IMG/VR virus record: IMGVR_UViG_3300031772_002685
Span: 1 to 22,169 of that record
Source: a virus
Strand: one strand, 5' to 3'
DNA: 22,169 nt
This document shows positions 2,712 to 16,559 of the stretch, piece after piece. The notes beneath the pieces were generated by a model. The model made no database searches. It worked only from the letters and a program-made list of their open reading frames with translations, and was not told where the DNA came from. Numbering within the stretch: the stretch's first letter is position 1; every line of letters starts with the position of its first letter. The position numbers were made by a program, and so were the translations under genes.

Positions 2712-3151
2712 GACCCGTTAAGACCTCGAACACCAGAAGATCCCATACCAGTAATTCTATTGAACTTGTCGACTTCTAAAAATGTCTGAACTGCTTGATT
2801 AGTTCCTGCAGACGTGACAGTGACAATTTGAGGAACGGTCCACGTAGGCCAGCAACTTGGACAGCCATAATGTCCACAGTGTCCGCCAACGTAGAGCGGC
2901 GCGCAAATCGGACGGTTGGCAAGATCCTCTCGAACGCGCTTCATTTCATCGAGAGTCTTGTACAACTCATTCTGGAAGCTTGGGTCGTCAAGTAAATCTG
3001 CAAGCCGTTTAACTTCATCTGTCAGAATCTTTGGGTTCTTCTTTTTCTTGCCGCCAGACTCATTGAGGTTCTTCTCGTACTCCGCGAGTTCCTCAGCGGT
3101 GCCTTCGATTACTTCCTCTGTGCCGTCCGGGTGTTTGATTGTCTTCTTCAT
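2708..3151 (-). CDS. Hypothetical protein with Cys/His cluster
   Basis: 147 residues, family not recognised. The start MKKTIKHPDGTEEVIEGTAEELAEYEK is a short strand-turn-strand plus helix element common at the front of small phage proteins. A Lys-rich linker (GGKKKKNPK) and a helical section (VKRLADLLDDPSFQNELYKTLDEM) follow. Then comes a compact cluster CAPLYVGGHCGHYGCPSCW containing four Cys and two His, possibly metal-binding, and a Ser/Thr/Gly-rich C-terminus. ATG 3151 overlaps the upstream TGA (ATGA), with GGGAG upstream. The role is unknown. Confidence 0.75.
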   Translation of the reverse strand: MKKTIKHPDGTEEVIEGTAEELAEYEKNLNESGGKKKKNPKILTDEVKRLADLLDDPSFQNELYKTLDEMKRVREDLANRPICAPLYVGGHCGHYGCPSCWPTWTVPQIVTVTSAGTNQAVQTFLEVDKFNRITGMGSSGVRGLNGS

Positions 3152-3627
3152 GGCTTCATCTCCCTTAGCTTACCTTTCCTAACTATCTTCTTGATGAACA
3201 AATCATCCCTGTATAGTACCACAAACTTCATCTTTCTTGAATGGCAGTAGGCCCTTGCGGCCGCACATTTTGTCTCGAAGTTAAGCCTGTCCTTTACGAA
3301 ACCCTTGACTTCCTCGAGTTGTTGAGTGCCGTTCCTCATGATTACTAGGATGTCTGGAACATATAGCCGTATCTTCTTGAGCTTAAGATCGTAATAGGGC
3401 AATCGAATCCTGTGTCGCTTGGTCCACGTAAGGACTCCAGCATTTAGATCAAGCATCCTGAACCGTTGAAGCTCATACGAGCTATCATACAATTCAGCTT
3501 GAGGTTTTGTACTCTTACCGCTCCAATACTTTCCCTTGGCTCCTTTACCGTTCGAATGAGCACCAGAAGCAAGTCTCTTTGCTGTTCGTTGAGATCTTCT
3601 CGATGGTAGATTTCTATTCATTTTCAT
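3148..3627 (-). CDS. PD-(D/E)XK nuclease, TnsA N-terminal-like
   Basis: 159 residues with a basic N-terminal tail (about 1-40, rich in Arg, Lys, Ser and Gly) followed by a compact nuclease core. Visible elements are E52 in YDSSYE, the strand-rich stretch to VPD (D92), and LEEVKG (E106, K108): the E ... PD-x(n)-E-V-K arrangement of PD-(D/E)XK enzymes. The wording PDILVI ... LEEVKGF resembles the TnsA N-terminal nuclease domain found in many phages. It would cut DNA with a divalent metal. The start is ATG 3627 (AAGG upstream) with a second ATG at 3621; it overlaps the deaminase gene by 14 bases. The biological role (host DNA breakdown, recombination or genome processing) cannot be read from the sequence. 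Confidence 0.8.
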   Translation of the reverse strand: MKMNRNLPSRRSQRTAKRLASGAHSNGKGAKGKYWSGKSTKPQAELYDSSYELQRFRMLDLNAGVLTWTKRHRIRLPYYDLKLKKIRLYVPDILVIMRNGTQQLEEVKGFVKDRLNFETKCAAARAYCHSRKMKFVVLYRDDLFIKKIVRKGKLREMKP

Positions 3628-4027
3628 ACAACCTTCTGAATGGAATCTCTGCTAACTCAAGTATGATAAGGCCGGCGCGATCTCTATACTCATCGCGATA
3701 GATCACCTCACCAATATGCGAGTTAATAATCCTCTTGGCGCACATTACACACGGCGAAACAGTGACGTACATCTTCTTTGAATATGGATCGCTGAAGTCT
3801 GTCTTGATGATCGCGTTGTCTTCGGCATGTAAACAACCACACTTGCCTGGCTCTTCGCTGTCGCAACCATTTGGAAGACCTTCAGCGTTTCCATTAAAAC
3901 CTAGACCGAGCACGCGATCATTCGTCGATGACACGATCACACAACCAACCTTGAGACGAGCACAGGTGCTTCTCTCCGAAAGCTTATCGGCGAGGTTCAT
4001 CCATATCTCGTCCCAAGCTGGTCTCAT
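3614..4027 (-). CDS. dCMP (deoxycytidylate) deaminase
   Basis: 137 residues of the cytidine/deoxycytidylate deaminase fold. The zinc and catalytic motifs are CLHAEDNAI (H67, E69) and SPCVMCAKRI (C93, C96). Further Cys residues in NGCDSEEPGKCGC (55, 63, 65) match the extra zinc site seen in phage dCMP deaminases. The FNGNAEGLPNGC stretch is also typical of the family. It converts dCMP to dUMP, feeding thymidylate synthesis; in a phage with modified cytosine it would also drain unmodified dCMP. ATG 4027 overlaps the upstream stop (ATGA). The length is close to the short members of the family and no key residue is missing. Confidence 0.93.
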   Translation of the reverse strand: MRPAWDEIWMNLADKLSERSTCARLKVGCVIVSSTNDRVLGLGFNGNAEGLPNGCDSEEPGKCGCLHAEDNAIIKTDFSDPYSKKMYVTVSPCVMCAKRIINSHIGEVIYRDEYRDRAGLIILELAEIPFRRLYENE

Positions 4028-4371
4028 TCTACGTCGAGATCAGGAGCGTCTGCTCCAACAACGATGAATCGAACAAGCGTTTCACCCGCACTCACATGCA
4101 TGACACTTGTTGTCTTGTTGACGAGTGTTGCATTCAACGGTCCAAGAAGGATCGTTCCTTTGTTTTGTAGATGCACGTCAGGTGTTTCAAGCGGTGAGCT
4201 CGTGAAAAGGACAGGGAGATCACATGATACCCCGCTATTGATCGTTACAGCGGTATTTACTGGCAACTTCACATCGACAGGCGAAGATAGCAAGAAAGCT
4301 TTGCCGTCCAACGACTTCTTGACTTTCAGTCCATCGGTGTAATCAAACTTCACGGTCTTCTTCTTGGCCAT
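4024..4371 (-). CDS. dUTPase-fold-like protein, catalytic motifs not seen
   Basis: 115 residues from ATG 4371, chosen because AAGGAAA lies 5 bases upstream and because the longer open frame to 4572 runs back through the Tad2 gene in another frame. The pattern LPVNTAVTINSGV (36-48) then ILLGPLNATLVN (74-85) then VSAGETLVRFIVV (93-105) follows the strand order of trimeric dUTPases and dCTP deaminases (LP-x-GT, strand-LVN, GDRIAQLV). I see no motif with the catalytic Asp and no Ser-rich or Gly-rich C-terminal motif, so it may be a structural or binding relative rather than an active enzyme. An in-frame ATG at 4407 is a less likely start. The fold assignment is inference. Confidence 0.6.
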   Translation of the reverse strand: MAKKKTVKFDYTDGLKVKKSLDGKAFLLSSPVDVKLPVNTAVTINSGVSCDLPVLFTSSPLETPDVHLQNKGTILLGPLNATLVNKTTSVMHVSAGETLVRFIVVGADAPDLDVE

Positions 4372-4376
4372 TGCGA

Positions 4377-4383
4377 TTTCCTT
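4377..4383 (-). promoter_or_regulatory. Ribosome binding site deciding the start at 4371
   Basis: AAGGAAA, 5 bases before ATG 4371, supports the short form of the dUTPase-fold-like gene over the long open frame that begins at 4572. Confidence 0.6.
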
Positions 4384-4412
4384 TTCCTTCTTATCCAACA
4401 GTTTCATGAATC

Positions 4413-4631
4413 TCAAACAACTACTTCCCAATCTATTGCCAACAGATCTGCCTGAGAACAAAGCCATGGAATCAACCCTCCTTGAACAGTCTTCATAAAG
4501 ACATACGGCTCTGTCATTTTTGAGTTGGCATCTGGAATTTGCAACATAACATACATATTCTTGCCATTCCATCCAAAACGTGCAACCTTGTTCCCGTGTC
4601 GCATCTCATCTACGGCTTTTCCGATATTCAT
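4413..4631 (-). CDS. tad2: DUF2829 / Tad2-like anti-Thoeris protein
   Basis: 72 residues matching the DUF2829 pattern along its whole length: MNIGKAVDEMRHGNKVARFGW, then NGKNMYV, then a variable segment, then FMKTVQGGLIPWLCSQADLL and AIDWEVVV. The Gly-x2-Ala start, the R-x-GWNG turn, the MKT-x-x-G-x4-PW-x-SQ-x-DLLA-x-DW core and the terminal VV are family hallmarks. Tad2 proteins, known from phages of many hosts, bind and sequester the cyclic-ADP-ribose-type signal of the Thoeris defence and so block NADase activation. ATG 4631 overlaps the TAA of the glycosyltransferase gene by one base. It is at the short end of the family. The family call is strong; activity as an anti-defence protein is inferred from the family. 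Confidence 0.88.
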   Translation of the reverse strand: MNIGKAVDEMRHGNKVARFGWNGKNMYVMLQIPDANSKMTEPYVFMKTVQGGLIPWLCSQADLLAIDWEVVV

Positions 4632-5725
4632 TATTTCACTCTCTCAATCTCATCGACGAAGTGTTTCACGTCCATAAATCGAAGCTTCTCGACTGCGTGT
4701 TCTCTTAGCTCGTGTTTACGTGCCAAAGATATAGTAGATAGCTCTTCAACGACATCACCCAATTCGGTCGCATCGGCGATCACGATGTCAGTGTAGGAGC
4801 TGATGTCGGTCAACTCACACAGACCCACAGGAAGCGTGCCGAACATCAATGCCTCCCATGGTCTCGGCGTAATGAACCCACTCTCGAGATACGATCTCTT
4901 TGCAAGAAGAGGGCAAGCAACCGCAGAGGAGTAGACCTTGTAGAAGTCCTTCACTGTGATTCGACCATGGAATGAGATGTTCGGCCAGCGCTCCTTACAA
5001 TCACCATCCCACTTTCCCCAGAACTCTACCTGTCCCGGGAATCGATCTGAGACAGGCTTGATGTATTGATCGATAACATCATCTCTCTCATAGCGGCTTC
5101 CAATATACACCAGCTTTCTGGTGGGGTCTGGAGCCACGAGGTTCATCTGTAGAAGATCATCTGTACAGATAGGTGGTTCCACCCTAGTCCTCTTAAGATG
5201 AAGCTCCAGAGGCTTCGAGGATGTCTCGAAGATCGCGTCAGGCAAGAATTGCTTTTCGTCCTCGACTCTCAGTTTGTGATCGAGGTCCCAGAAAATGATC
5301 TTCGTCTTTGATTCCTTGTAATGCTTAATCAGGTCAAGTTGGCGTAGAAGATCTGATGAATGTTTCTCGGGCACAAATGTTGCCATATTTCCGGTGATAT
5401 CGCAGTTTCTTCCATCGATAGGCCAGCGCCATTCGATCAGCAGATAATCAAGGACAGGATACGACTGGTCCATGAGACGACAGTCCATATAAGCATCATA
5501 TCGTTTCTGGGTGGAGAAGGCAAGGAAGTTATCTCTGTGGAATCTCTTGTAAGCAGGAAAATCACGGTCCTCTTGCATGAGGTAAACGAGTCCGCCGCGT
5601 TTCTGAACTTCATGAATAATACTCCACGAGTATGTTGCATTGCCATCCGGTGTAGATAGTTCGTTGCCCGAGCTGTCGAGCTTATTATCGCCTAAGAATC
5701 CCCAGAAAGCATAACCGAATCTCAT
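4631..5725 (-). CDS. GT-B-type glycosyltransferase
   Basis: 364 residues from ATG 5725, which overlaps the upstream TGA (ATGA) and has GAGGAAA 5 bases before it. The N-terminal half begins with a short hydrophobic strand (MRFGYAFWGFLGDN) and contains KIIFWDLDH (142-150). The C-terminal Rossmann-like half has KLVYIGSRYER (204-214), NISFHGRITVKDF (249-261), CPLLAKRSYLESGF (271-284) and TPRPWEALMFGTLPVG (286-301). The last is the typical donor-sugar-binding Pro-Arg-x-x-E-A-x-x-x-G-x-x-P region of GT1/GT4-like GT-B enzymes. It transfers a sugar from a nucleotide donor. Its neighbours (sugar-nucleotide mutase-like protein, methyltransferase, nucleotide kinase) make phage DNA the most attractive acceptor, but protein or envelope targets cannot be excluded. 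Confidence 0.8.
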   Translation of the reverse strand: MRFGYAFWGFLGDNKLDSSGNELSTPDGNATYSWSIIHEVQKRGGLVYLMQEDRDFPAYKRFHRDNFLAFSTQKRYDAYMDCRLMDQSYPVLDYLLIEWRWPIDGRNCDITGNMATFVPEKHSSDLLRQLDLIKHYKESKTKIIFWDLDHKLRVEDEKQFLPDAIFETSSKPLELHLKRTRVEPPICTDDLLQMNLVAPDPTRKLVYIGSRYERDDVIDQYIKPVSDRFPGQVEFWGKWDGDCKERWPNISFHGRITVKDFYKVYSSAVACPLLAKRSYLESGFITPRPWEALMFGTLPVGLCELTDISSYTDIVIADATELGDVVEELSTISLARKHELREHAVEKLRFMDVKHFVDEIERVK

Positions 5726-5922
5726 TTTAATTTCCTCGAGAACACCTTCCACCACAAATCACTTATTACGACGTATGGAATTACAAGCCATATGAATCCT
5801 ATAAGAAACGCGGTCATTGGACCGTCAGCAGTGCCGGCGTTTCCACTAAATGAAAGAACAACCCAAAACGTTGTCCACATAGCAATTAAAACGCCACATG
5901 TTATAAGAATTATTCCAATCAT
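5722..5922 (-). CDS. Small two-helix membrane protein
   Basis: 66 residues with two clear hydrophobic segments: IGIILITCGVLIAMWTTFWV (2-21) and MTAFLIGFIWLVIPYVVI (about 36-53). They are separated by a short Gly/Asp loop (SGNAGTADGP) and followed by a basic tail (WWKVFSRKLK). It is an integral inner-membrane protein by composition. ATG 5922 and the final TGA both sit in ATGA junctions with neighbours, so it is translated as part of the chain. Size and topology would fit a holin-like or superinfection-exclusion protein, but nothing specific supports either and no lysis gene is nearby. Confidence 0.7.
   Translation of the reverse strand: MIGIILITCGVLIAMWTTFWVVLSFSGNAGTADGPMTAFLIGFIWLVIPYVVISDLWWKVFSRKLK
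5731..5737 (-). promoter_or_regulatory. Ribosome binding site deciding the start at 5725
   Basis: GAGGAAA, 5 bases before ATG 5725. It supports the start that forms an ATGA junction with the preceding gene over the upstream in-frame codon at 5755. Confidence 0.65.
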
Positions 5923-6110
5923 CGTGATGGCTCATAATCGTCAGGATCGCGCTCAATGTCTTCATAAAACGAACCCATTCCGTCTGGTGTAGAAGTTACC
6001 ACATACCAACAACCGCCAACGAGTTTCTTTGACTTGCTGATCCCAAGGGTCGTTTCGGGCTTCCTGTTCTTTTTCTTCTCGTCGTCACCGTCTTTTCTAG
6101 AGAATCTCAT
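5919..6110 (-). CDS. Hypothetical protein, 63 aa
   Basis: 63 residues, not recognised. A strongly charged N-terminus (MRFSRKDGDDEKKKNRKPE) precedes a small strand-rich region (KKLVGGCWYVVTSTPDGMGSF) and an acidic tail (YEDIERDPDDYEPSR). No membrane segment or metal motif is present. ATG 6110 lies inside the last codons of the kinase gene (14-base overlap), and its stop overlaps the start of the membrane protein. It belongs to the same translational chain; its role is unknown. Confidence 0.65.
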   Translation of the reverse strand: MRFSRKDGDDEKKKNRKPETTLGISKSKKLVGGCWYVVTSTPDGMGSFYEDIERDPDDYEPSR

Positions 6111-6645
6111 TGTTATTACCGTCGAACTTGTATTTCGTGTAGAGTTCCAAAATTTTCATCTCTTCATCTAAGTTGTTATTCCATCGAGTAACATCAATCC
6201 ACATCGTACTACAGTTTGTCCAGTATTCAAACTCAAGATACTTGGAATGAATGTCACCGAATCTTCCATTCACCTCTTCGACGTCATCGACATATCCAGT
6301 ATAATCCGTCCGATATGGAATAAAAATCTTCGCACCGAGATCTGCAAACTGCTTGTCTGTCTTCTCAAGCATGTTCATATTTGTCTTGCGACCAAAGACC
6401 TGCGAGTAAACCCATTCCGACGGGTAACTGCGATCAAATACGCAACTTACCTTCGTCGCCTTGAGAAACTGAGGAAGAGTGTAATCGAACCACAGCGAAT
6501 CCTTGAGAAGTCCAGCTGTCCAGTTCTCCTTCTCGTTGGCCGCCTTGAAGTACGGGATATCGAGTCTCTTGGCAAGCTCTGTTGCCATCTCAGTCTTGCC
6601 ACAACGGTCAGGACCCTCGAAGATATATATCTGTTGATCTTTCAC
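6097..6645 (-). CDS. Deoxynucleoside monophosphate kinase, thymidylate-kinase-like P-loop enzyme
   Basis: 182 residues from GTG 6645. This start forms a GTGA junction with the methyltransferase stop and has AGGAG 10 bases upstream; an ATG at 6675 would force a 34-base overlap. The P-loop is EGPDRCGKTEM (10-20) and the DRSYPSEWVYSQ motif (71-82) matches the thymidylate-kinase-like DR(S/T) element that grips the substrate. The family phosphorylates dNMPs using ATP. In phages with modified pyrimidines a kinase of this kind lifts the modified dNMP to the diphosphate, and its place between methyltransferase and glycosyltransferase genes suits that role. The exact substrate is not visible. Confidence 0.85.
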   Translation of the reverse strand: MKDQQIYIFEGPDRCGKTEMATELAKRLDIPYFKAANEKENWTAGLLKDSLWFDYTLPQFLKATKVSCVFDRSYPSEWVYSQVFGRKTNMNMLEKTDKQFADLGAKIFIPYRTDYTGYVDDVEEVNGRFGDIHSKYLEFEYWTNCSTMWIDVTRWNNNLDEEMKILELYTKYKFDGNNNEIL

Positions 6646-7373
6646 AGTGGAAGGACTCCTCGAGATAGAACCCAATAATCGCTCGGTGCTTCATCGGGTT
6701 CATTCTTATATTGTTTCGTATAGAGACGAAGATTGTTAAGCCTTGCGAACTCATCAACGGCGAGAATCACTCCACCCCAATAGCGACAATAATCGTCTCC
6801 AAAGATGATGCCGCCCTTGTCCAACAATGGAAAGTAGGACTTCAAGTCCTGCTTGACATCTTCATATTCATGGCTCGCATCGATATAGATAAGTCCAGCC
6901 TTCACGTTATTCTTGGCAAGATGACGTGCAGCATTGACAGACGTTTGAGGGAATGGAACGATCCGATCGCTTAGGTTCGCGCTCACAACATTCGAAAGGA
7001 ACGTGTAATAAAGTTGTGGATAACCGTTCTTCAGCTTCAAAGAAAGATATCGTTTGGTGTCATCCTTCTTGTCCCACATCTCTGTTGCACCCAACCAGGT
7101 GTCAATGCAAACGATCTTCGTGTCGAACGTTACGTCTGCCAATGATCCTTCAAGCGACGGAGTATCGTTCGCTGCTTCAAGAATGTTTCCCATTGCAATT
7201 GCGGACTTTCCCTTCCATGTCCCAACCTCAAGGATCAGCTTTGGACGAGATAGCTCGATCATCTTCTTAAAGAACTCTTCATGTCCTCCCCAACCCTGGA
7301 GATCTTCATCAAAAGGATTGTGATAGAAATTAGTATAGGGATTGTTTACATGAATCAACTTTGAGATGTCCAT
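6642..7373 (-). CDS. Class I SAM-dependent methyltransferase (Methyltransf_24 / CmcI-like)
   Basis: 243 residues with a Rossmann methyltransferase core. Motif I is LILEVGTWKGKSA (46-58), the second acidic strand is IVCIDTW (87-93), and IYIDASHEYEDV (162-173) followed by GGIIFGDDY (187-195) is the hallmark of the CmcI/rhamnosyl O-methyltransferase-like branch. Relatives methylate sugars or small molecules and some need a metal held by the Asp/His cluster seen here. ATG 7373 has GGAG 6 bases upstream. It is flanked by the RGP-like gene (16-base gap) and the nucleotide kinase (4-base overlap), so a role in finishing a sugar or base modification is plausible. The substrate is unknown. Confidence 0.82.
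   Translation of the reverse strand: MDISKLIHVNNPYTNFYHNPFDEDLQGWGGHEEFFKKMIELSRPKLILEVGTWKGKSAIAMGNILEAANDTPSLEGSLADVTFDTKIVCIDTWLGATEMWDKKDDTKRYLSLKLKNGYPQLYYTFLSNVVSANLSDRIVPFPQTSVNAARHLAKNNVKAGLIYIDASHEYEDVKQDLKSYFPLLDKGGIIFGDDYCRYWGGVILAVDEFARLNNLRLYTKQYKNEPDEAPSDYWVLSRGVLPL
6656..6660 (-). promoter_or_regulatory. Ribosome binding site supporting the GTG start at 6645
   Basis: AGGAG, 10 bases before GTG 6645. With the GTGA junction it favours a GTG start over the ATG at 6675. Confidence 0.5.
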
Positions 7374-7389
7374 TGTTTCTCCTCAACCA

Positions 7390-8478
7390 TCAAAACAATT
7401 CTGACCACAGAACCATGGCTTCACCAAGAGTCGTAAAATATTCTTCGTACTCTTTACCAGCATCGAAACTTTTGACATGTACTCCCATAGACCTGTAGAT
7501 CTTAGGAAACGCTACGAACGTATTCCATGGAATCAATGGAAACTTATCAACGTGTTCCCAGAAAGTTTCATTGAGACCAATTCCATCAGCTTCCTTCTTC
7601 AGGTTTGCAAAAGGATTTGATGCGCGCTCATGTCGAATATATGGCATGCCCGTTGTTACGAGGTGTCCCGTCATGTCTGCGATCTTCTTCATGATAATTC
7701 CGCACCAAATATCGCCGAATCTATCGAGCTGAAGCTTGACGAGGCTGTCCTTGTCCAGTTTCTCGGAGGTTATTCCAGACCACATTCGACGACCCATCAA
7801 CAGATGGTACATGAGAACAGTTGCCTCGCTCTTCCACATCACGTTCATACCGCACATCGGGAAATATTGACCGTGTGGAACAATTCTATTGTCGAACGAG
7901 AAGTCCTCGGGAATTGGATTTACAAGCTGGTATGGAGCGTCATAGTCAAGTACGTTCGTCCATAACCCATGATTCACGATTACTTTGTCACACTTCCCGA
8001 CATTATAGAATGGAACACCTCGTGGTTTGACAGAGTTGAGCGTGTTAAACCAGCGCGATCGTCCAGTAAACTGTTTTAGATGTTCTTTGAGGAACCCGGC
8101 ACCGTCATACTTCAAGCCATCTACATCGCTACATGGGTAGCAATCGTCGTCAAGCGTGATGATGTAATCGCTGCTATAGCTTTTAGCCGCAACAAGGTAA
8201 CCATAGCTACGAACCGTATCAGATCTTCGCGGGATGATCCATGAGTTCTGTTCTAGATGATTATCGATATTTTCCCATGAAAGATGTTTGACGTTGCAAC
8301 CAAGATGATCGTTGTTGATACCGAATGTTTTCTTTGGATTGTCTTCCATCACGATGAAATTATCGATGTGATCGAACAACCCAATATCTGACCATCGCTT
8401 CACAAAGTCATTAAAACAGTTCTCTCGGATCGTCGGGATGACGAGAGAGATCGTTACATCTTTACCGTCTACTTGCAT
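7390..8478 (-). CDS. Reversibly glycosylated polypeptide family (GT75), UDP-arabinopyranose mutase-like
   Basis: 362 residues, the usual length of plant RGP/UAM proteins. It has the nucleotide-sugar DDD motif in ITLDDDCYP (107-115), then PRGVPFYN (152-159) whose Arg153 lines up with the arginine glycosylated in plant RGPs. Next come NHGLWTNVLDYDAPYQL (169-185), FPMCGMN (206-212), RFGDIWCG (253-260) and GMPYIRHERASNPFANLKKE (277-296). These are the family's most conserved stretches and are nearly intact. Plant members interconvert UDP-arabinopyranose and UDP-arabinofuranose. ATG 8478 has GGGAG 8 bases upstream and overlaps the preceding gene by 10 bases. In this phage it most likely supplies an activated pentose for DNA glycosylation. 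The family is certain; the exact sugar is inferred. Confidence 0.9.
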   Translation of the reverse strand: MQVDGKDVTISLVIPTIRENCFNDFVKRWSDIGLFDHIDNFIVMEDNPKKTFGINNDHLGCNVKHLSWENIDNHLEQNSWIIPRRSDTVRSYGYLVAAKSYSSDYIITLDDDCYPCSDVDGLKYDGAGFLKEHLKQFTGRSRWFNTLNSVKPRGVPFYNVGKCDKVIVNHGLWTNVLDYDAPYQLVNPIPEDFSFDNRIVPHGQYFPMCGMNVMWKSEATVLMYHLLMGRRMWSGITSEKLDKDSLVKLQLDRFGDIWCGIIMKKIADMTGHLVTTGMPYIRHERASNPFANLKKEADGIGLNETFWEHVDKFPLIPWNTFVAFPKIYRSMGVHVKSFDAGKEYEEYFTTLGEAMVLWSELF

Positions 8479-8660: not shown

Positions 8661-9150
8661 ATCGCTCCTGTAATTCATCGAATGCGACTGCGACTTTACC
8701 AATACCGTTTTCTCTAATCAATGCTTTGATTTGAGCATGAATATCTACAGTCTCGACAACTGGCGTTCCATATTCATTGGCTGCTTTCTCAAGAACTTCG
8801 CGCATCTTTGGATCAAAAGAAACTGGAGAAACAATAAGGACGTTGTCGAGACGAGCTATCGTTGATGTTCGCTGCACTTCCCATGAAGCTGTAAGTGAAA
8901 TAAAATGTCCATCTTCGTTTTTCTTGCTCCGAGTTTGATAAGTCGCGTAAACAATTTTTATCTTTGGTTCAATGAATTCTTCATTCGATTTTGTAATATA
9001 GTTGTAACGTGGTTGTGATTTCTTTGTTCGAGCCAGAGCCAGAACAAGACCGACGCGCATGTCTGCAGATCGACGAACAGTTGCGGCATATGCAACATAG
9101 TTGCCAGCCTTTATCTCACGTCCAGTCATGTCCTTGTATTCTAGTCCCAT
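8584..9150 (-). CDS. Hypothetical protein with SH3/KOW-like N-terminus
   Basis: 188 residues. The N-terminal third (DMTGREIKAGNYVAYA, then MRVGLVLALA) looks like a small beta-barrel of the SH3/KOW kind often found in phage proteins. The middle is strand-rich, and the C-terminal third is helical (DPKMREVLEKAANEYG, IHAQIKALIRENGIGKVAVA) ending in a Gln/Glu/Ser/Val-rich low-complexity tail. That tail (about residues 163-188) is where it overlaps the next gene by 77 bases. ATG 9150 overlaps the upstream gene by 10 bases, with AGGTGA upstream. No known function. Confidence 0.7.
   Translation of the reverse strand: MGLEYKDMTGREIKAGNYVAYAATVRRSADMRVGLVLALARTKKSQPRYNYITKSNEEFIEPKIKIVYATYQTRSKKNEDGHFISLTASWEVQRTSTIARLDNVLIVSPVSFDPKMREVLEKAANEYGTPVVETVDIHAQIKALIRENGIGKVAVAFDELQERYEPEQVQQTSEVVQSSGNVVDGNPA
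8665..8669 (-). promoter_or_regulatory. Ribosome binding site deciding the start at 8660
   Basis: AGGAG, 4 bases before ATG 8660, lying inside the preceding gene. It picks this start over the in-frame codon at 8702. Confidence 0.6.
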
Positions 9151-9389
9151 TCATTCACCTGAGAACCACTAACCGCAAGTTCAACGGCTCTTCGAGCCAA
9201 TCCGCCATTGTTAAATTTATTACTGAGAACGGTCTCATCTTCTGCGATTCCGACGGATGCTCCCCATGTCCCGTCGTCATTAAACCAAATGCGACCGACA
9301 TAACCATTATCCAATCCTATCACACCATTCACATGACAGGTAGTTTTATTTGAAGAATCTGTACACCAATTTACTTTAATCTTGCTCAC
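9141..9389 (-). CDS. Hypothetical protein, 82 aa
   Basis: 82 residues starting at GTG 9389 in a GTGA junction with the preceding gene. It reads as a single small mixed domain: SKIKVNWCTDSSNKTTCHVNG, a strand-turn section with GYVGRIWFNDDGTWGASVG, then a helix LARRAVELAV. No signal peptide, membrane segment or catalytic motif is visible. It sits in a run of four small genes between the DNA polymerase and the RGP-like gene. Family not recognised. Confidence 0.7.
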   Translation of the reverse strand: MSKIKVNWCTDSSNKTTCHVNGVIGLDNGYVGRIWFNDDGTWGASVGIAEDETVLSNKFNNGGLARRAVELAVSGSQVNEWD

Positions 9390-9787
9390 GTTGTCACCGG
9401 AACAAGCTCGACGAGGAACTTCACGAACTTGCTCGATTTCATCGAGAGATCATCGACGAACGCGGCATTGAGCTTGACGCACTTACACGCATTCGTCTCG
9501 AACGTGGTACGAGCCTTATTCTTCCTAAGTTCGTCGACATTTCCCAGAGCATCGAGATGAAGTAATGGATTCATCTCATCGCCGATGTCTGCACCGGCCG
9601 CAAGTTGGTAAGGAAGAAAATCACCCTTGTTCTCGAAATAACGTCGAGTTACTCGAAGTACTCTGCAGATCGTCTTTGACTTGGCATCACAGATGACGAT
9701 GTCACCAACTTTCACCTCGTCGAATGTTAGTCCACCTTTCCGTCCAAAGAACTTTGGATCCTGCTTTACAGTAGTGTTAGTTGCCAC
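9386..9787 (-). CDS. Hypothetical protein, 133 aa
   Basis: 133 residues from GTG 9787, which overlaps the end of the DNA polymerase gene by 11 bases and has GGAGG about 6 bases upstream. The region FDEVKVGDIVICDAKSKTICRVLRVTRRYF (22-51) looks like a small beta-barrel opening. The middle is acidic and helical, and the end FVKFLVELVPV is a strand. No known family. Its start inside the polymerase gene suggests translation coupled to the polymerase, but that does not define a role. Confidence 0.7.
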   Translation of the reverse strand: MATNTTVKQDPKFFGRKGGLTFDEVKVGDIVICDAKSKTICRVLRVTRRYFENKGDFLPYQLAAGADIGDEMNPLLHLDALGNVDELRKNKARTTFETNACKCVKLNAAFVDDLSMKSSKFVKFLVELVPVTT

Positions 9788-12700
9788 AGCCCGCCTCCAA
9801 ATCCATTATCTGTTTTGCTTCGATGTCTGCGGCTTCATCCAACGAAATGTCATCCACGTTCGTCATGTATCCTGACACTGAGTGTTCAGAATGTGCGAAT
9901 CCAGGTTTGCCGATCACGAGCTTTGTTGTATCCTGATCTATCTTTCTATTGAATGTCGTGATGTAGACTCCGCCCTTCCTGATTATCTTCTGAAGATGCT
10001 TCCATACTGTCGAGAATGCCGGCGCCTCGAACTCTTCATCTTGTGCGGTAGTGAACTTAAGGAACGCCATCTCCTGTCCGTTCCTCTGGTTCCTTGCCTT
10101 GAAGTCCTTCAAGAACACAGGAATATCTATCACCTCATCCTCTGATTCGATGAGCTCTTTGTACGTTGGAACATGTCCGCCAAACAAACCGACAAGCTTC
10201 TCCTGGCGATCGAGAACCTCGAACGGAGTCCCGCGAAGTGTGAAACCAAGCAGCTCATTCTCGAAATCAATTTTGTGGATGAGTCCGATGTCAGGAGGTG
10301 GAAGTGTTTCCCACGCAGCGAGTGTCTGCTCTCGAACGATCGAATTATTCCGTCCCTTGAATGCTAGATCGATGTACGTTCCATAAAACTTCATAAGCTG
10401 ATTCATGTTCTTGTTTAGACTATCAAATGCGCCGACCTTAATGAGAGGAACGATTGACGTCTTGCTCGTCTTGGATCTCTTTAGATAATCTCTGAAGTCG
10501 AGGTAGGGCTGATTGTCTACGATCTTCTCGACAGCAGACTGCCCGACACCAAGAACTGACTTTAGAGATAGACGAATCGCATCGCCTTCCACGGTGTTAC
10601 TCATCTTACTCTTGTTCACGTCGACTGGCAGAATCTTGATTCCTCTTCGCTTGATATCATTGACATGCTTCTGCATGTTGCCAGACTGTTGAACCGTAAG
10701 AACAGCTGCGGCAAACTCAAGCGGATAGTAAGTCGAGAGATGTGCGGTCTGCATCGTGATGAGAGCATACGACTTGGAGTGTGCCACGTTGAATCCGTAA
10801 CCACCGAATTTTGCAATCGATGCCCACAGATCATTCGCCTGCTCCTCAGTCCACCCATTCTCTTTGCAACCGACGACAAGCTTTCCCTTCAGTTCCTTCT
10901 TCTCATTATCGAGAAACTCATCAGACTTTGACTTGTCCTTCTTGAGGAAGAGTTTACGAAGACGGTTGACATCCTTCATTGGAAGCTTGCCCAGTTCAAG
11001 GCCAATCTTCAGAAGTTGTTCCTGATAGATCATACATCCGTAAGTGTTCTTAAGCAGACGCTCGAGGATTGGATGTCCGTACTTGATGTTTTCCTTGTTG
11101 TGTTTGTTCTCGACGAACAGTTCATCCATCTTCGATCCTAGAGGTCCTGGTCGATAGAGCGCACAGATTGCCGATATGTCTTCATAGCAATCGGGCTTAA
11201 CACGCATTGCCAACTCTCTGATTCCCTTCTCCGTGAACTGGAAGATGCCGTCGAAGTTCCCGTCACAAAAGATCTTCTTCATTACGGTCGGATCATCCTT
11301 GTTCAGATTGTGCGCTCGTAGACCCTCTTTCAAATCGACGTACTTCTTGCCTGTCCTCTCTGCAATAAGTTTCAGGCAGAAATCCATCACAGCAAGAGTT
11401 GCAAGCCCGAGGATGTCGAACTTTACCAGACCCATTGCTGAGATGTTCTTGTTAACAATTCCGTCCGTGAAACTCGTCTGTACGATCCCTTTCGACATGA
11501 ACACGGCGGTTTCACGTGGCAGGTCATCACCGATGATCACGCCCGACGCATGTCGACTCACCTGTCTATTACGACCATATAGACGAGAGATGTTCTCACC
11601 GACGATTGGATATTTGTTAACGAACGCGTTGTAAGACTTGCTTACTCTTTGCACGTCCTCAAGTTTGATGACGATCGTACTCTTGTCTGTGCCTGCCGTA
11701 TGCAGGATTCGAAGCTCAGACTCGATCTTCTTGTTCACGTCATTTGTTTCATTATGGTCGATGTTATAGACTCGCGAAAGATCCTTGAGCAGACCCTTGA
11801 TCTGGAACGTGCCATATGAAGAGATGCACGCAACGTTATCCTCACCGAACGTTCGGCGAAGAAGATCCTTCGCAGCATCTGGATCCTGGAAGTCGACGTC
11901 GATATCTGGAAGTTCAACACGAGTCGGATCAATGAATCGCTCGAACATCAGATCGTTTGCAATTGGATCAAGGTCAGTGATTTGTAGAAGATAACAAAGC
12001 AAAGATCCAGCAGAAGAACCTCGACCGGGTCCAACCCACATGATCTTCTTTGCTTCGCCAACCATCTTGTCCATCGTAAGAAAGTAATTCGAGATTCCTT
12101 TCTCTTTGATGATCTTCAATTCATGCAATAGACGAGACTTGTAAACTGGATTCTCTGCAAGACCCATCGCCTTCATCGCCTCGATCGCCTTACCACCAAG
12201 CTCCTTGAAAGGATTCTCGGATGTCGTCTTTGGAAGACGTTGCGTCACGTCGGGTTCAAAGTCCTCGATCAAGCTATCCATCAACATCGTATTCTGAAAA
12301 GCCTCGAGCGCAATCTTTGGCTCAAGCGTTCCGCCAAACTTCTCGAACGTCTCCCACATCTCCATCGGAGACTTGATGTAGAGCTGACGAACGCCGAAAT
12401 CCCAATCATCACCGCGAGTTGCTACGGTCAGCTTGCCGCGAAGCATGTACAAGAACTCTTGAGCCTTCCATCCGTCCTTATCGATGTAGTGGGCGTCCGT
12501 CGTCACTGTCAAGGGAATACCAGTCTCTTGATGGATCTTTACGAGACACTCGTTGATGTAACGCTGGGCGTCAACCTCATTAAACTGGAGCTCCAGAAAG
12601 AATCGACCCCGTCCGAAGATCTCATCAAAATCCTTTGCTTCATTAACGACATCGTTCCAACCACACTCTCCACGCTTGAACTCCCAACACTTGTTGCTGA

Positions 12701-13259
12701 CGACGCCACCCATACAAGCGGAAGACGCAATAACTCCGGCCGAGTGGCTTCGGAGCATCTCTTTGTCCATACGTGGCTTGCCATAGAACCCCAACTTATG
12801 CGCCTTATACGTGAGATCGTAGATGTTCGAGAGGCCAATCCTGTTACAGGCCAACAACACCAAGTGACCCTTACGACGAAGAGCTCGAGCATTCTGCTTA
12901 CCGACCATGTCTTCGGTCAGCTCAGTTCGAGATGCTTCGTCGTCTTCCTCTTCGCCAGCAACAGGAGTCTCGATGATCTTCTTCTTTGCAACCTTGTCTG
13001 CCTTGATCTTTGCTCGTAGGTCGTTCCACTCTTTGAGGTCGTGGATGACATATGCTTCTACACCGAGCGCAATCTTCTGGCCTTGCTTCTTTCCTTGTAG
13101 AAAAATATCGGCGTGTGCATGACAATGTCCATGATCAGTAATTGCAAGTCGAGCAAGTCCTTTCTCTTTGGCGACCTTCACCATTTCCTCTGGCAAAGAA
13201 ATCCCGTCCATCATTGAGAAGTGACTATGATTATGCAGTGAGAAGAACTTATCAATCAT
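9777..13259 (-). CDS. dnaE: DNA polymerase III alpha subunit, C-family (DnaE type)
   Basis: 1160 residues, the same length as bacterial DnaE. The PHP domain opens with SLHNHSHFSMMDG (7-19), ITDHGHCHAH (40-49), IASSACMGG (177-185) and TTDAHYID (253-260), keeping its metal ligands, so proofreading by PHP is possible. The polymerase core has GPGRGSSAGSL (410-420), LPDIDVDF (450-457, catalytic D454 and D456) and KFDILGL (613-619, D615), plus fingers with LYRPGPLG and FNVAHSKSYA. An OB-like domain lies near 1045-1105. An acidic insertion (about 100-117) interrupts the PHP region. No clear clamp-binding motif or separate proofreading subunit is visible in the window. ATG 13259 overlaps the upstream small gene (ATGA). 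Confidence 0.96.
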   Translation of the reverse strand: MIDKFFSLHNHSHFSMMDGISLPEEMVKVAKEKGLARLAITDHGHCHAHADIFLQGKKQGQKIALGVEAYVIHDLKEWNDLRAKIKADKVAKKKIIETPVAGEEEDDEASRTELTEDMVGKQNARALRRKGHLVLLACNRIGLSNIYDLTYKAHKLGFYGKPRMDKEMLRSHSAGVIASSACMGGVVSNKCWEFKRGECGWNDVVNEAKDFDEIFGRGRFFLELQFNEVDAQRYINECLVKIHQETGIPLTVTTDAHYIDKDGWKAQEFLYMLRGKLTVATRGDDWDFGVRQLYIKSPMEMWETFEKFGGTLEPKIALEAFQNTMLMDSLIEDFEPDVTQRLPKTTSENPFKELGGKAIEAMKAMGLAENPVYKSRLLHELKIIKEKGISNYFLTMDKMVGEAKKIMWVGPGRGSSAGSLLCYLLQITDLDPIANDLMFERFIDPTRVELPDIDVDFQDPDAAKDLLRRTFGEDNVACISSYGTFQIKGLLKDLSRVYNIDHNETNDVNKKIESELRILHTAGTDKSTIVIKLEDVQRVSKSYNAFVNKYPIVGENISRLYGRNRQVSRHASGVIIGDDLPRETAVFMSKGIVQTSFTDGIVNKNISAMGLVKFDILGLATLAVMDFCLKLIAERTGKKYVDLKEGLRAHNLNKDDPTVMKKIFCDGNFDGIFQFTEKGIRELAMRVKPDCYEDISAICALYRPGPLGSKMDELFVENKHNKENIKYGHPILERLLKNTYGCMIYQEQLLKIGLELGKLPMKDVNRLRKLFLKKDKSKSDEFLDNEKKELKGKLVVGCKENGWTEEQANDLWASIAKFGGYGFNVAHSKSYALITMQTAHLSTYYPLEFAAAVLTVQQSGNMQKHVNDIKRRGIKILPVDVNKSKMSNTVEGDAIRLSLKSVLGVGQSAVEKIVDNQPYLDFRDYLKRSKTSKTSIVPLIKVGAFDSLNKNMNQLMKFYGTYIDLAFKGRNNSIVREQTLAAWETLPPPDIGLIHKIDFENELLGFTLRGTPFEVLDRQEKLVGLFGGHVPTYKELIESEDEVIDIPVFLKDFKARNQRNGQEMAFLKFTTAQDEEFEAPAFSTVWKHLQKIIRKGGVYITTFNRKIDQDTTKLVIGKPGFAHSEHSVSGYMTNVDDISLDEAADIEAKQIMDLEAGCGN

Positions 13260-13848: not shown

Positions 13849-14307
13849 TCAATATCCTGTCTCGAGCCGAGTCTTGACGATCCCATTCTTCCTCAAATAC
13901 TCATCAAAGATTTCCTTTGCAGAGAATCCAGAGAGGATACAGATCTCTACAAAATACGCGAGTGCATCTCCAAGTTCCTCTTTGTAGTGATCAAGATCTA
14001 CTTTGCGATCATCACTAATCTTATGGGCCTTGTTCTTCAATGTAAACGAAGCCTCTGCAAGCTCTTCGATAGTATTGAAGATAAATTCCTTAATGAGACG
14101 TTGTCCGCCCTTCGTGGTGAGATCAACAGGCCATTCGGGAAGAATGTCATTGTCCTTGAGTTGTGTCATGAACAAACGCTGCGTCTCAAAGATCGTTCCC
14201 AACATGTCTTCGGGCATGCAATGTTCTGTTTGTTTCTTTGACAGTTCAACAACATACTCTTCCATCGTAAACTGCTTCGAAGTATTATCACCTTCCATTC
14301 CACTCAT
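13849..14307 (-). CDS. All-alpha NTP pyrophosphatase (dCTPase/dUTPase-like)
   Basis: 152 residues. The helical metal-binding motifs of the all-alpha NTP-PPase superfamily are present: FIFNTIEELAEASF (about 85-98, with the EE-x2-E ligands) and HYKEELGDALAYFVE (about 117-131, with the E-x3-D ligand pattern). The last helices, GFSAKEIFDEYLRKN, match dimeric dUTPase and T4 gp56-type dCTPase/dUTPase proteins. Such enzymes cleave dNTP to dNMP and pyrophosphate. With the dCMP-type synthase nearby, removing dCTP (and giving dCMP as substrate) is the likely job. ATG 14307 overlaps the upstream stop (ATGA). Substrate specificity is inferred, not seen. Confidence 0.8.
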   Translation of the reverse strand: MSGMEGDNTSKQFTMEEYVVELSKKQTEHCMPEDMLGTIFETQRLFMTQLKDNDILPEWPVDLTTKGGQRLIKEFIFNTIEELAEASFTLKNKAHKISDDRKVDLDHYKEELGDALAYFVEICILSGFSAKEIFDEYLRKNGIVKTRLETGY

Positions 14308-14693
14308 TTCACATACCTCACCGCAAGTCCTTCGTTCAGAAGCAATTCGTTCAAATTAAACATCGTGCCGTCTGCGGCTTGAAATCCAATTGAAGCAAGC
14401 CATCTGCCAAAATTATCCGTGTCTTTCTGTATCTGAACAAACATATTCCACTTAGTGGAACCGGGGGCAAGAAGTGAAATTACACGGTCCTTTGCGACAT
14501 GGGCTCGAGCTTTAAGAACAGGATCTTTGGAGTTTAACTCTGGAGTATCGATGCCAAGTAGACGGAATCGTCCAGAGAAACTGCAATGAAAACCCATGTC
14601 GACAACAAGATCGACAGTGTCTCCATCGACGACATTCGTGCACTTGGCTCTGTAGTTTGATGTTTCTGGAAACTGCACTTCGGCGACGGTCAT
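14304..14693 (-). CDS. Staphylococcal-nuclease-like (thermonuclease) protein
   Basis: 129 residues forming one SNase OB-fold domain. Recognisable elements are NVVDGDTVDL (20-29, D23), FRLLGIDTPE (43-52, with Arg44, Asp49 and Glu52 in the catalytic positions), a helix KARAHVAKDRV, and DNFGRWLASI (93-102) whose Arg97 matches the second catalytic arginine. All key residues are present, so it should cut DNA or RNA with calcium or a similar ion. There is no signal peptide, so it would act in the infected cell or be carried in particles. It overlaps both neighbours by four bases. The target is unknown. Confidence 0.88.
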   Translation of the reverse strand: MTVAEVQFPETSNYRAKCTNVVDGDTVDLVVDMGFHCSFSGRFRLLGIDTPELNSKDPVLKARAHVAKDRVISLLAPGSTKWNMFVQIQKDTDNFGRWLASIGFQAADGTMFNLNELLLNEGLAVRYVK

Positions 14694-15571
14694 TTATAGT
14701 CCCTCGTTACCAACCATTTAGAAAACTTGAACTCTGGTGGAATGATATTGATAACGGACTCACCAGCGGAAACTGATTGGGCAAGAACATCAATCATGAA
14801 CCAAACTTCTTTCGACCCATAGATTTGCGGACACTCGATTTTTGTAAAAGAATCATCTTGATTCTCGGACGGGTAGAGATGATTATCATCTACAGCATAT
14901 CCAGTAATTGTCTGCATCATCTTGAAATGACGTTCATACACGTGAAACGAATCAGCGAAGTGACAATACTTTCCGTACCGGAGATCTGGATATTGATCTT
15001 TGAGAAGATTGAACATCATCTCGTGAATGAAACTAAATGCTGGTGCATCGTTTCCCATTCCGAATATTGCATCCTGTGATCTCATGTGAACTGTCATATT
15101 CAACATGTTCTCACGAATTCTAAAATTGAGAGCATAAGTGCACGGAACGTCTTTAGTCACTGACAGTAGATGATCAGCGCTTAATATCATCATGCTGGCT
15201 CTTCGTGAATCTTTATCCTCGATCAGTGTACAAAACGCTGAATTGAATTGGCCACATTTACTCGGGAAAAGATATTGTCCATAATTTGAATTGATCGAGC
15301 CGTCGTCGTTAACGATTCCTTTCCAGATCTTTGCTTTCTCCGTTATGCTAAGATCGAATCGATTGCCCTTTAAATACCAGAGCAACTCGTCCTTGATGTA
15401 ATTCAAATTAAGCTTGCGACAATTGAAACTCTGAAATCGCTGATACGGTTTCAAAGTGTATTGGAAGTTCTCTGCCTCGAGGACGAGTTGTCCTCTTGGA
15501 GACACGAACTTGCCTTCTAACATCAGCCGCGAAAAGATTTCTCTGAAGGCGCCTTCTTCACCAATCGCCAT
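14690..15571 (-). CDS. Thymidylate synthase family, predicted dCMP hydroxymethylase
   Basis: 293 residues from ATG 15571 (GAGG 6 bases upstream; a TTG at 15583 is in frame but poorer). The fold is clear from DSRRASMMIL (121-130, phosphate-binding arginines), DVPCTYALNF (141-150, nucleophile C144), MRSQDAIFGMGNDAPAF (163-179) and ADSFHVYERHF (206-216). Aligning RSQDAIFGMGND without gaps to RSCDVFLGLPFN of E. coli ThyA puts Asp175 at the Asn that recognises dUMP. Asp there is the known switch towards dCMP, as in T4 gp42. The HAFFQF stretch after the nucleophile is also changed (CTYALNF). I infer dCMP hydroxymethylase, with dCMP methylase as the alternative. Confidence 0.88.
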   Translation of the reverse strand: MAIGEEGAFREIFSRLMLEGKFVSPRGQLVLEAENFQYTLKPYQRFQSFNCRKLNLNYIKDELLWYLKGNRFDLSITEKAKIWKGIVNDDGSINSNYGQYLFPSKCGQFNSAFCTLIEDKDSRRASMMILSADHLLSVTKDVPCTYALNFRIRENMLNMTVHMRSQDAIFGMGNDAPAFSFIHEMMFNLLKDQYPDLRYGKYCHFADSFHVYERHFKMMQTITGYAVDDNHLYPSENQDDSFTKIECPQIYGSKEVWFMIDVLAQSVSAGESVINIIPPEFKFSKWLVTRDYK

Positions 15572-16559
15572 GTACCGCCTCAATTATAATCTTCTCTAAG
15601 TTTTTTGGCAAAGGATGTCCGCTTGCTGCCCTATGTCCGCCGCCACCAAACATCTTGGCGATCTTGGCAACATCAACATTTCCTCTCGAACGCAAGCTTA
15701 CAGATCCCTTATCGACACTAATCTGTGCTGCAACGTCTACGTCTGGATATCTGTCAAGAACATCCATTAAAAGCTGAGAAACATTCTGTTCAGACGATAC
15801 GACATATCCGATGTTAACAACGTAATCAACAAGTTGAATAGAATGTTTGACAACGTTCTGAAGAAGACGTTCGATGTTGCGCTTCTTCTGACCCTTGATG
15901 ATTTCTAGAACATCACCTTCCCAGAAATCCCAGATTGACGGATTAGATTCTTCCCATCGACCCATGTCCATAAAGTCTTGCACAAATCTCTTTTGTCCTA
16001 CAAACGTCATCCAACAAGCCATGTCCATGGAGCGCGGGTCTTTCTGCAACCATCGATCGTTATCGTCCACCACAGTCACAAAACGAATCATTTCAGGGAT
16101 GATATCTGCCAAACCGCCAAGCCCCAATGGAGACATAACTCCAAGATAGTGATAGAGCAACATACATCCACATCCAGTTCCACCATTACCTTCACAGTCG
16201 ATATATGCCCAATAACGATCCTTCATGTGAGCAGACGTCAAGTGATGATCGAGTAACACGCATTTGCCACGCTCCTCAAGAACATCTGCTTCCTCTTCGC
16301 TGGTCAAACCGACGTCCGCAAAGATGATAAACTTGTCAGACTTCATCACAGGATTCTCATCCATGAATTTCTTCAGACTTCCAGCTCCGACATAGTAAAT
16401 GTCTTCAGGAAGTCCGCCGAACTTAAGGAAGAGAATCGCACACGCTGCACCGTCCATACAGTTCACATGAGTGACAAGCGCAGTTGTGCCAGCAAGAGTA
16501 GTGGGAACCCAGGGAAGTTCCTCGTTAATCTTCTTGTTCATGCTTTGGGTATCAATCAT
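15558..16559 (-). CDS. DHH/DHHA1 family phosphoesterase
   Basis: 333 residues with a complete two-domain layout. The DHH domain has THVNCMDGAA (30-39), FADVG (80-84), LLDHHLTS (102-109) and VTVVDDNDRW (161-170), giving the Asp/His metal cluster. The DHHA1 domain at the end has SLRSRGNVDVAKIAKMF and GGGGHRAASGHP (305-316). The family (RecJ, NrnA, GdpP relatives) hydrolyses phosphodiesters in ssDNA, short oligonucleotides or cyclic dinucleotides. At 333 residues it is nearer NrnA-like enzymes than RecJ, so breakdown of short oligonucleotides or pAp-like molecules is more likely than long resection. ATG 16559 overlaps the RNR stop (ATGA). Substrate not determined. Confidence 0.9.
   Translation of the reverse strand: MIDTQSMNKKINEELPWVPTTLAGTTALVTHVNCMDGAACAILFLKFGGLPEDIYYVGAGSLKKFMDENPVMKSDKFIIFADVGLTSEEEADVLEERGKCVLLDHHLTSAHMKDRYWAYIDCEGNGGTGCGCMLLYHYLGVMSPLGLGGLADIIPEMIRFVTVVDDNDRWLQKDPRSMDMACWMTFVGQKRFVQDFMDMGRWEESNPSIWDFWEGDVLEIIKGQKKRNIERLLQNVVKHSIQLVDYVVNIGYVVSSEQNVSQLLMDVLDRYPDVDVAAQISVDKGSVSLRSRGNVDVAKIAKMFGGGGHRAASGHPLPKNLEKIIIEAVHGDW
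15578..15581 (-). promoter_or_regulatory. Ribosome binding site deciding the start at 15571
   Basis: GAGG, 6 bases before ATG 15571, within the end of the DHH gene. It supports the ATG over the in-frame TTG at 15583. Confidence 0.5.

Follow-up and report, generated by a model that had tools for sequence, protein, structure and literature searches.

A candidate T4-like pathway to glycosylated hydroxymethylcytosine DNA, with a GT75-family mutase, in a viral genome fragment

The chain of minus-strand genes at positions 4631-8478 of the viral record IMGVR_UViG_3300031772_002685 raises the question of whether this phage modifies its DNA and, if so, which base is altered and with which sugar. The whole 22,169-base stretch (45.6% G+C, hereafter the window) was analysed, and its recognisable genes, which lie on the minus strand, are listed in Table 1. 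A first-pass annotation of the letters alone had named six genes in this chain (RGP, a methyltransferase, a P-loop kinase, two open reading frames (ORFs) of 63 and 66 amino acids, and a GT-B glycosyltransferase) and had proposed that they form a DNA-hypermodification cassette which glycosylates a modified cytosine. Both statements are upheld here, the first by the presence of all six genes on the minus strand, with family matches and an order that recurs in other contigs, and the second by an enzyme of the T4 gp42 type, a transferase resembling T4 DNA beta-glucosyltransferase (BGT) and the conserved linkage of the genes. We consider it probable that the phage makes glycosylated 5-hydroxymethylcytosine (hmC) DNA in the manner of T4, with a furanosyl sugar made by a mutase and added after replication, perhaps in O-methylated form.

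The gene that is decisive for cytosine lies outside the span of the first-pass annotation, six kilobases upstream of the cassette. Judging from its closest relatives and diagnostic residues, its product is a dCMP-hydroxymethylase-type enzyme and not an ordinary thymidylate synthase (TS). The best matches in the Protein Data Bank (PDB) are T4 dCMP hydroxymethylase gp42 (3e-19, 27% identity), the CMP hydroxymethylase MilA (4e-17) and E. coli TS (5e-8). The position of E. coli TS Asn177 (N177/D179), where a change to Asp switches the TS family from uracil to cytosine (PMC8670742), is occupied by Asp in the window enzyme and in 19 further full-length homologues from GT-B-bearing phages (20 out of 20); as a control, the TS of LR756511, the only huge phage in INPHARED that bears RGP, has Asn at this cytosine-selecting position. 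The catalytic Cys148 and Ser94, Tyr96, Asp145 and Asp171 of gp42, the last four of which have been tied to hydroxylation and folate (PMC6400193), are all retained in the window enzyme. A few of its homologues each deviate at one of these sites: two have Gly94 (Ser94 being the usual residue) and one has Glu145. These residues favour hm-dCMP over 5-methyl-dCMP as the predicted product.

The same positions bear on the analogy with RB69 that had been drawn earlier, under which the phage would follow an RB69- or Thanatos-like chemistry and carry 5-hydroxy-dC bearing arabinose. The systems do share a common logic of TS-family enzyme, kinase, transferase and sugar genes, as seen in RB69 and in PMC13390438. 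According to that study, however, the arabinose of RB69, NP and relatives sits on 5-hydroxycytosine and not on hydroxymethylcytosine, and RB69 ORF048c (L102:7498-8214), which from its place in the RB69 arabinose cluster we infer to be the 5-hydroxy-dCMP synthase described there, has Thr, Tyr, Glu and Asn at the positions of gp42 Ser94, Tyr96, Asp145 and Asp171, whereas the window family keeps Asp171 and, apart from the deviations given above, Asp145 and Ser94. RB69-type 5-hydroxycytosine chemistry was rejected for the window on these hydroxymethylase residues and, as the GT-B profile likewise fails to detect RB69 ORF003c or ORF050c, we regard it as highly improbable. As for RB69 itself, Asn171 (in the folate-binding site) and Glu145 of ORF048c fit a changed reaction that yields a 5-hydroxy group in place of a 5-hydroxymethyl group.

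The transferase is more divergent. Its family match is weak (Glyco_trans_1_2, 5e-4, under the cut-off), and a search of the PDB sequences with its profile gave no match. An AlphaFold (AF2) model made from six sequences, with a predicted local distance difference test score (pLDDT) of 84.3 and a predicted template modelling score (pTM) of 0.86, was compared by Foldseek with 350,542 PDB chains. BGT was found at rank 3 (E 3e-9) and again at ranks 4-5, 11 and 12, with template modelling scores of about 0.55-0.64, and the complex of T4 alpha-glucosyltransferase (AGT) with DNA at rank 10. As ranks 1-2 are held by the cyanobacterial GT-B tll1591, the fold alone is only suggestive of kinship with BGT. 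A profile of 22 family members scored 62.4 against the BGT sequence (E 4e-8 for one comparison), compared with 24.8 for AGT and with 13 and 15 for RB69 ORF003c and ORF050c, while none of 40 shuffles scored above 21.7. BGT residues Arg195, Arg269 and Glu272, which we take to be donor-site residues, align to Arg224, Arg298 and Glu301 of the GT-B, and these are invariant in 22 of 22 members. Taken with the fold, the profile match indicates that the GT-B is a remote homologue of BGT, and the enzyme is a candidate for the transfer of a sugar to hmC in duplex DNA.

The order RGP-kinase-GT-B was found again in independent viral contigs, with 43-63% identity for RGP and GT-B, which shows that the gene chain is not due to chance. 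Its description as a chain of overlapping genes stands in part. The likely start of the GT-B is the ATG at 5725 and not the GTG at 5755, which gives an ATGA overlap with the stop of the 66-residue ORF and agrees with the start of its homologues, and the likely start of the kinase is the GTG at 6645, in a GTGA overlap with the stop of the methyltransferase; a Shine-Dalgarno-like GAGGA precedes both. The RGP and methyltransferase genes are instead separated by a gap of 16 bp. The operon-like region additionally holds the hydroxymethylase, a MazG-like gene and a dCMP deaminase, the latter two of which are recurrent in the modules of GT-B contigs. Among the 22 viral records with GT-B that make up the linkage set, a deoxynucleoside monophosphate (dNMP) kinase is beside or near the GT-B in every one and the hydroxymethylase is present in 21 (the exception being the 34-kb fragment G034), directly after the GT-B in ten and overlapping it in some. 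One of these contigs (G002, 102 kb) bears T4-like head, tail and terminase genes. This linkage also bears on the alternative that the two sugar enzymes, GT-B and RGP, have nothing to do with DNA and serve to glycosylate a protein of the virion or a polymer on the host surface. GT-B and RGP families also make cell-surface glycans, and 23 viral records with a more distant RGP (at most 41% identity) have neither GT-B nor hydroxymethylase; the GT-B itself, however, travels with a cytosine-specific hydroxymethylase in all viral records but one and with a hydroxymethylase in most actinobacterial loci, and its neighbourhood consists of early replication genes and not of structural genes, which makes this alternative highly improbable.

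About 41 contigs of actinobacterial chromosomes (L114-L154) also hold a GT-B of this family, nearly always with a TS-family hydroxymethylase carrying Asp179 upstream, and this strengthens the tie between GT-B and hydroxymethylated cytosine. The cluster is conserved in about 40 of these chromosomes, and its Pfam content was taken from L114 and partly from L115. In L114 (5159-13767), a carbamoyltransferase lies between hydroxymethylase and GT-B, and further genes follow for a methyltransferase, for kinases of the APH type, for a histidine phosphatase and for an APH-epimerase fusion. The product of the cluster is likely a nucleoside or nucleic acid with modified hydroxymethylcytosine. Such an apparent small-molecule cluster, together with a kinase that is always near the GT-B, would suit an enzyme that modifies the free hydroxymethylated nucleotide before its incorporation. 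We find this quite improbable for the phages, as the nearest solved homologues include the DNA-acting BGT and AGT and the module adjoins replication genes.

With hmC as the preferred base, the nature of the sugar depends on the RGP protein, which by family and by its intact functional residues is a GT75 nucleoside diphosphate (NDP)-pyranose mutase and thus a candidate provider of an NDP-furanosyl donor. PDB entries matched by its family profile include a UDP-arabinopyranose mutase (1.5e-23) and MtdL, which is a GDP-fucose mutase (1e-20). The DDD motif and the equivalents of MtdL Arg159 (which is autoglycosylated), Asp195, Arg257, Asp260 and His287 are kept in five of five RGP sequences, and that of Arg289 is likewise in place in the RGP protein; mutation of Asp109, Arg159, Asp195, Arg257 or Asp260 abolishes the activity of MtdL (PMC9937993). 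The sole mapped activity-critical positions that are not conserved are the Ser228-Gln229 pair, replaced by Gly-Met, and plant mutases also have Gly at the first of them (Gly216 in AtRGP2; PMC9937993). The residues for base selectivity are mixed, with Pro at MtdL Thr13 as in the UDP-type plant enzymes and Ser86-Asp87 as in the GDP-type MtdL (the alignment at position 42 is unreliable). UDP-arabinose, UDP-galactose and GDP-fucose are therefore all candidate substrates and, since GT75 mutases also use GDP-L-fucose and UDP-galactose (PMC9937993), the nucleotide-activated pentose of the first-pass annotation is not established.

RGP is present in nine of the 22 GT-B contigs, and eight of these nine form one supported clade (96/94) in the GT-B tree, with one outlier. 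Read on this tree, RGP would be a donor-changing gene that joined an hmC-glycosylation module of wider distribution. The 13 contigs without RGP indicate that the GT-B family works without it, and could also be taken to mean that hmC carries an ordinary pyranose and that RGP is a self-glycosylating protein, as known for members of its family (PMC9937993), or a second transferase of the GT-A type. We hold this to be unlikely, considering that the mapped mutase-essential residues are present except for the Ser228-Gln229 pair and that the linkage of RGP and GT-B is stable within one clade. Two RGP-bearing contigs also have a pair of genes resembling glucose-1-phosphate cytidylyltransferase and 4,6-dehydratase (G004:64118-66619 and G013:13175-15923). 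The pair lies some 20 kb away from the cassette and may have another purpose.

The methyltransferase (METHYLTRANSFERASE), besides the match given in Table 1, which lies far over the Methyltransf_24 cut-off, passes the cut-off for RMNT_CmcI (24.9 bits against 23.2) and falls under that for TylF. Enzymes of the Methyltransf_24/CmcI class often methylate sugars or hydroxyls. Within the cassette the gene was found in two of the nine contigs with RGP and GT-B, namely the window and G002 (56% identity, same place), and O-methylation of the base-borne sugar would be a guess, perhaps evenly balanced. Single-sequence PDB searches gave nothing useful for the methyltransferase, the kinase or the MazG-like protein.

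The glycosylated-hmC pathway that we favour could then run as follows. The MazG-like enzyme would remove dCTP and give dCMP, part of which the dCMP deaminase would divert to dTMP, while the TS-family enzyme would hydroxymethylate dCMP with methylene-tetrahydrofolate as the source. The P-loop kinase would phosphorylate hm-dCMP towards hm-dCTP for the polymerase to put into DNA, and the BGT-like GT-B would move a sugar onto the 5-hydroxymethyl group after replication. The GT75 mutase would convert an NDP-pyranose, made by the host or by genes beyond the fragment, to the NDP-furanose used by the GT-B; the base would consequently carry a furanosyl sugar, which in the window phage and one relative the CmcI/TylF-like methyltransferase may O-methylate. 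The modified base would shield the DNA from bacterial DNA-cutting defences. From family membership, diagnostic residues and conserved linkage, which form the sequence-based part of this reading, we infer the reactions, the furanose, the methylation and the protective role. The most specific form of the proposal is possible but doubtful: in it, virion hmC would bear a furanosyl sugar that is O-methylated, is formed through a metal-dependent GT75 mutase of the plant type and is added by a BGT-like enzyme, and this would be a new base.

Several observations weigh against this pathway. In an alignment region of low confidence, the catalytic Asp100 of BGT aligns to Glu108 of the GT-B, invariant in 22 of 22 members. 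No INPHARED phage record matches the GT-B, and the family therefore has no member with virion DNA. In the actinobacterial loci with GT-B and carbamoyltransferase, the sugar may be transferred not to DNA but to a nucleoside or nucleotide in free form. For the sugar, the contigs without RGP count on the same side, as does the poor structure prediction for the RGP protein (pLDDT 55), and no NDP-sugar dehydratase/epimerase or nucleotidyltransferase was found in the window, G002 or G007. Finally, several records of the linkage set are near-identical (G033/G037, G005/G041/G042 and G043/G044), which reduces the independent lineages to about 18.

Table 1. Position and assignment of the genes considered in the window.
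Feature	Coordinates	Strand	Basis or remark
TnsA-like endonuclease N-terminal domain protein	3148-3627	minus	PF08722 1.7e-7
dCMP deaminase	3614..4027	minus	PF00383 4e-21, ComEB-type 1e-18; also present in related modules
Conserved neighbour gene, start uncertain	4024..4572	minus	Homologues at the equivalent place in several contigs; ORF overlaps the Tad2-like gene
Tad2-like protein	4413-4631	minus	PF11195 (Thoeris anti-defence 2 domain) 5e-24
GT-B glycosyltransferase, candidate hmC-DNA glycosyltransferase	4631..5725	minus	AF2 model, Foldseek, profile match to T4 BGT
66-residue ORF	5722..5922	minus	Nothing over cut-off; stop overlaps GT-B start
63-residue ORF	5919..6110	minus	Without family match
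P-loop dNMP kinase, candidate hm-dCMP kinase	6097..6645	minus	phrog_761 'thymidylate kinase' 3e-11
S-adenosylmethionine (SAM)-dependent methyltransferase, Methyltransf_24/CmcI/TylF-like, candidate sugar O-methyltransferase	6642..7373	minus	PF13578 4e-18
GT75/RGP-family NDP-pyranose mutase, candidate furanosyl-donor maker	7390..8478	minus	PF03214 9e-39
DNA polymerase III alpha subunit, context gene	9777..13259	minus	Adjoins the module in most relatives
MazG/all-alpha NTP pyrophosphohydrolase, candidate dCTPase	13849..14307	minus	MazG 5e-4, dUTPase_2 5e-4, both slightly under the Pfam cut-off
dCMP hydroxymethylase-type enzyme, TS family	14690..15583	minus	PDB matches, diagnostic residues
Ribonucleotide reductase large subunit	16556-19264	minus	Intein inside

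Among the minor genes, neither short ORF has a family match over the cut-off, and the one of 66 residues probably has two membrane helices by its sequence. The conserved neighbour gene gave no Pfam match, and its product is suspected, from its sequence alone, to have a dUTPase-like beta-fold. The Tad2-like gene, which comes immediately after the GT-B in the gene chain, is a possible second counter-defence gene; the TnsA-like protein is possibly a recombination or resolvase nuclease, and the intein of the ribonucleotide reductase contains a splicing domain and an HNH endonuclease. The related contigs have additions of their own. In G005, a protein with a radical-SAM-like motif recognised by eye, LCNSRCKTCHIW, is encoded between kinase and GT-B (L007:1257-2141), and the hydroxymethylase is followed by another ORF that looks like a glycosyltransferase, the second on this contig (L007:3981-5126); both could provide further decoration of the base. 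G035 has tandem GT-B copies (L075:7603-8748 and 8992-10143) with a hydroxymethylase and no RGP, perhaps for a disaccharide on the base.

Glycosylation of hmC (in T4) and arabinofuranosylated phage DNA are already known, the arabinofuranosylation being named in a 2026 paper cited by PMC13390438, and an arabinofuranosyl base would by itself not be new. If the proposed pathway is true, what is new is the GT75 route to a viral furanosyl donor, distinct from the arabinose route of the RB69 type, and a divergent BGT-like transferase family without a member in INPHARED, which both in phages and on actinobacterial chromosomes is linked with cytosine hydroxymethylases. No paper that connects GT75 with phages came up in our literature searches. 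Many restriction and Cas nucleases are blocked by bases of this kind, which are themselves targeted by modification-dependent defences, and DNA glycosyltransferases with a different donor would be useful tools for the labelling of hydroxymethylcytosine.

Compared with T4, where hmC glucosylation relies on gp42, the gp56 dCTPase, the gp1 dNMP kinase and BGT, the window has an equivalent set of functions; BGT and gene 42 adjoin in T4 as well, and the window enzyme shares the diagnostic Asp of gp42. In contrast to T4, the homology of the GT-B is visible by profile and fold only, a GT75 mutase and a methyltransferase are added, and DNA polymerase III replaces the T4 polymerase. RB69/Mosigvirus and Thanatos resemble the window in that a single region provides for a phage-made furanose or pentose donor and for a DNA glycosyltransferase, together with a kinase and an enzyme of the TS family. 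In Thanatos, cytosine carries a pentose and there is a UDP-xylose pyrophosphorylase (PMC12838424). Where the window has GT75, however, RB69 relies on a set of arabinose-5-phosphate-isomerase-like and nucleotidyltransferase genes, and its transferases are unrelated by profile. With the known GT75 mutases (plant UAM/RGP, bacterial MtdL and Hyg20), the window RGP shares all key metal and autoglycosylation residues and most sugar residues; it differs from them in being phage-borne beside a DNA glycosyltransferase and in its mixed base-selectivity residues. In the phage 5-carbamoyloxymethylcytosine module of the MetaGPA study, the second step is reportedly carried out by a carbamoyltransferase, whereas the window has a glycosyltransferase and the actinobacterial L114 cluster has both a carbamoyltransferase and a GT-B. 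What this module and the window have in common is the TS-family Asp177, which marks cytosine modification (PMC8670742).

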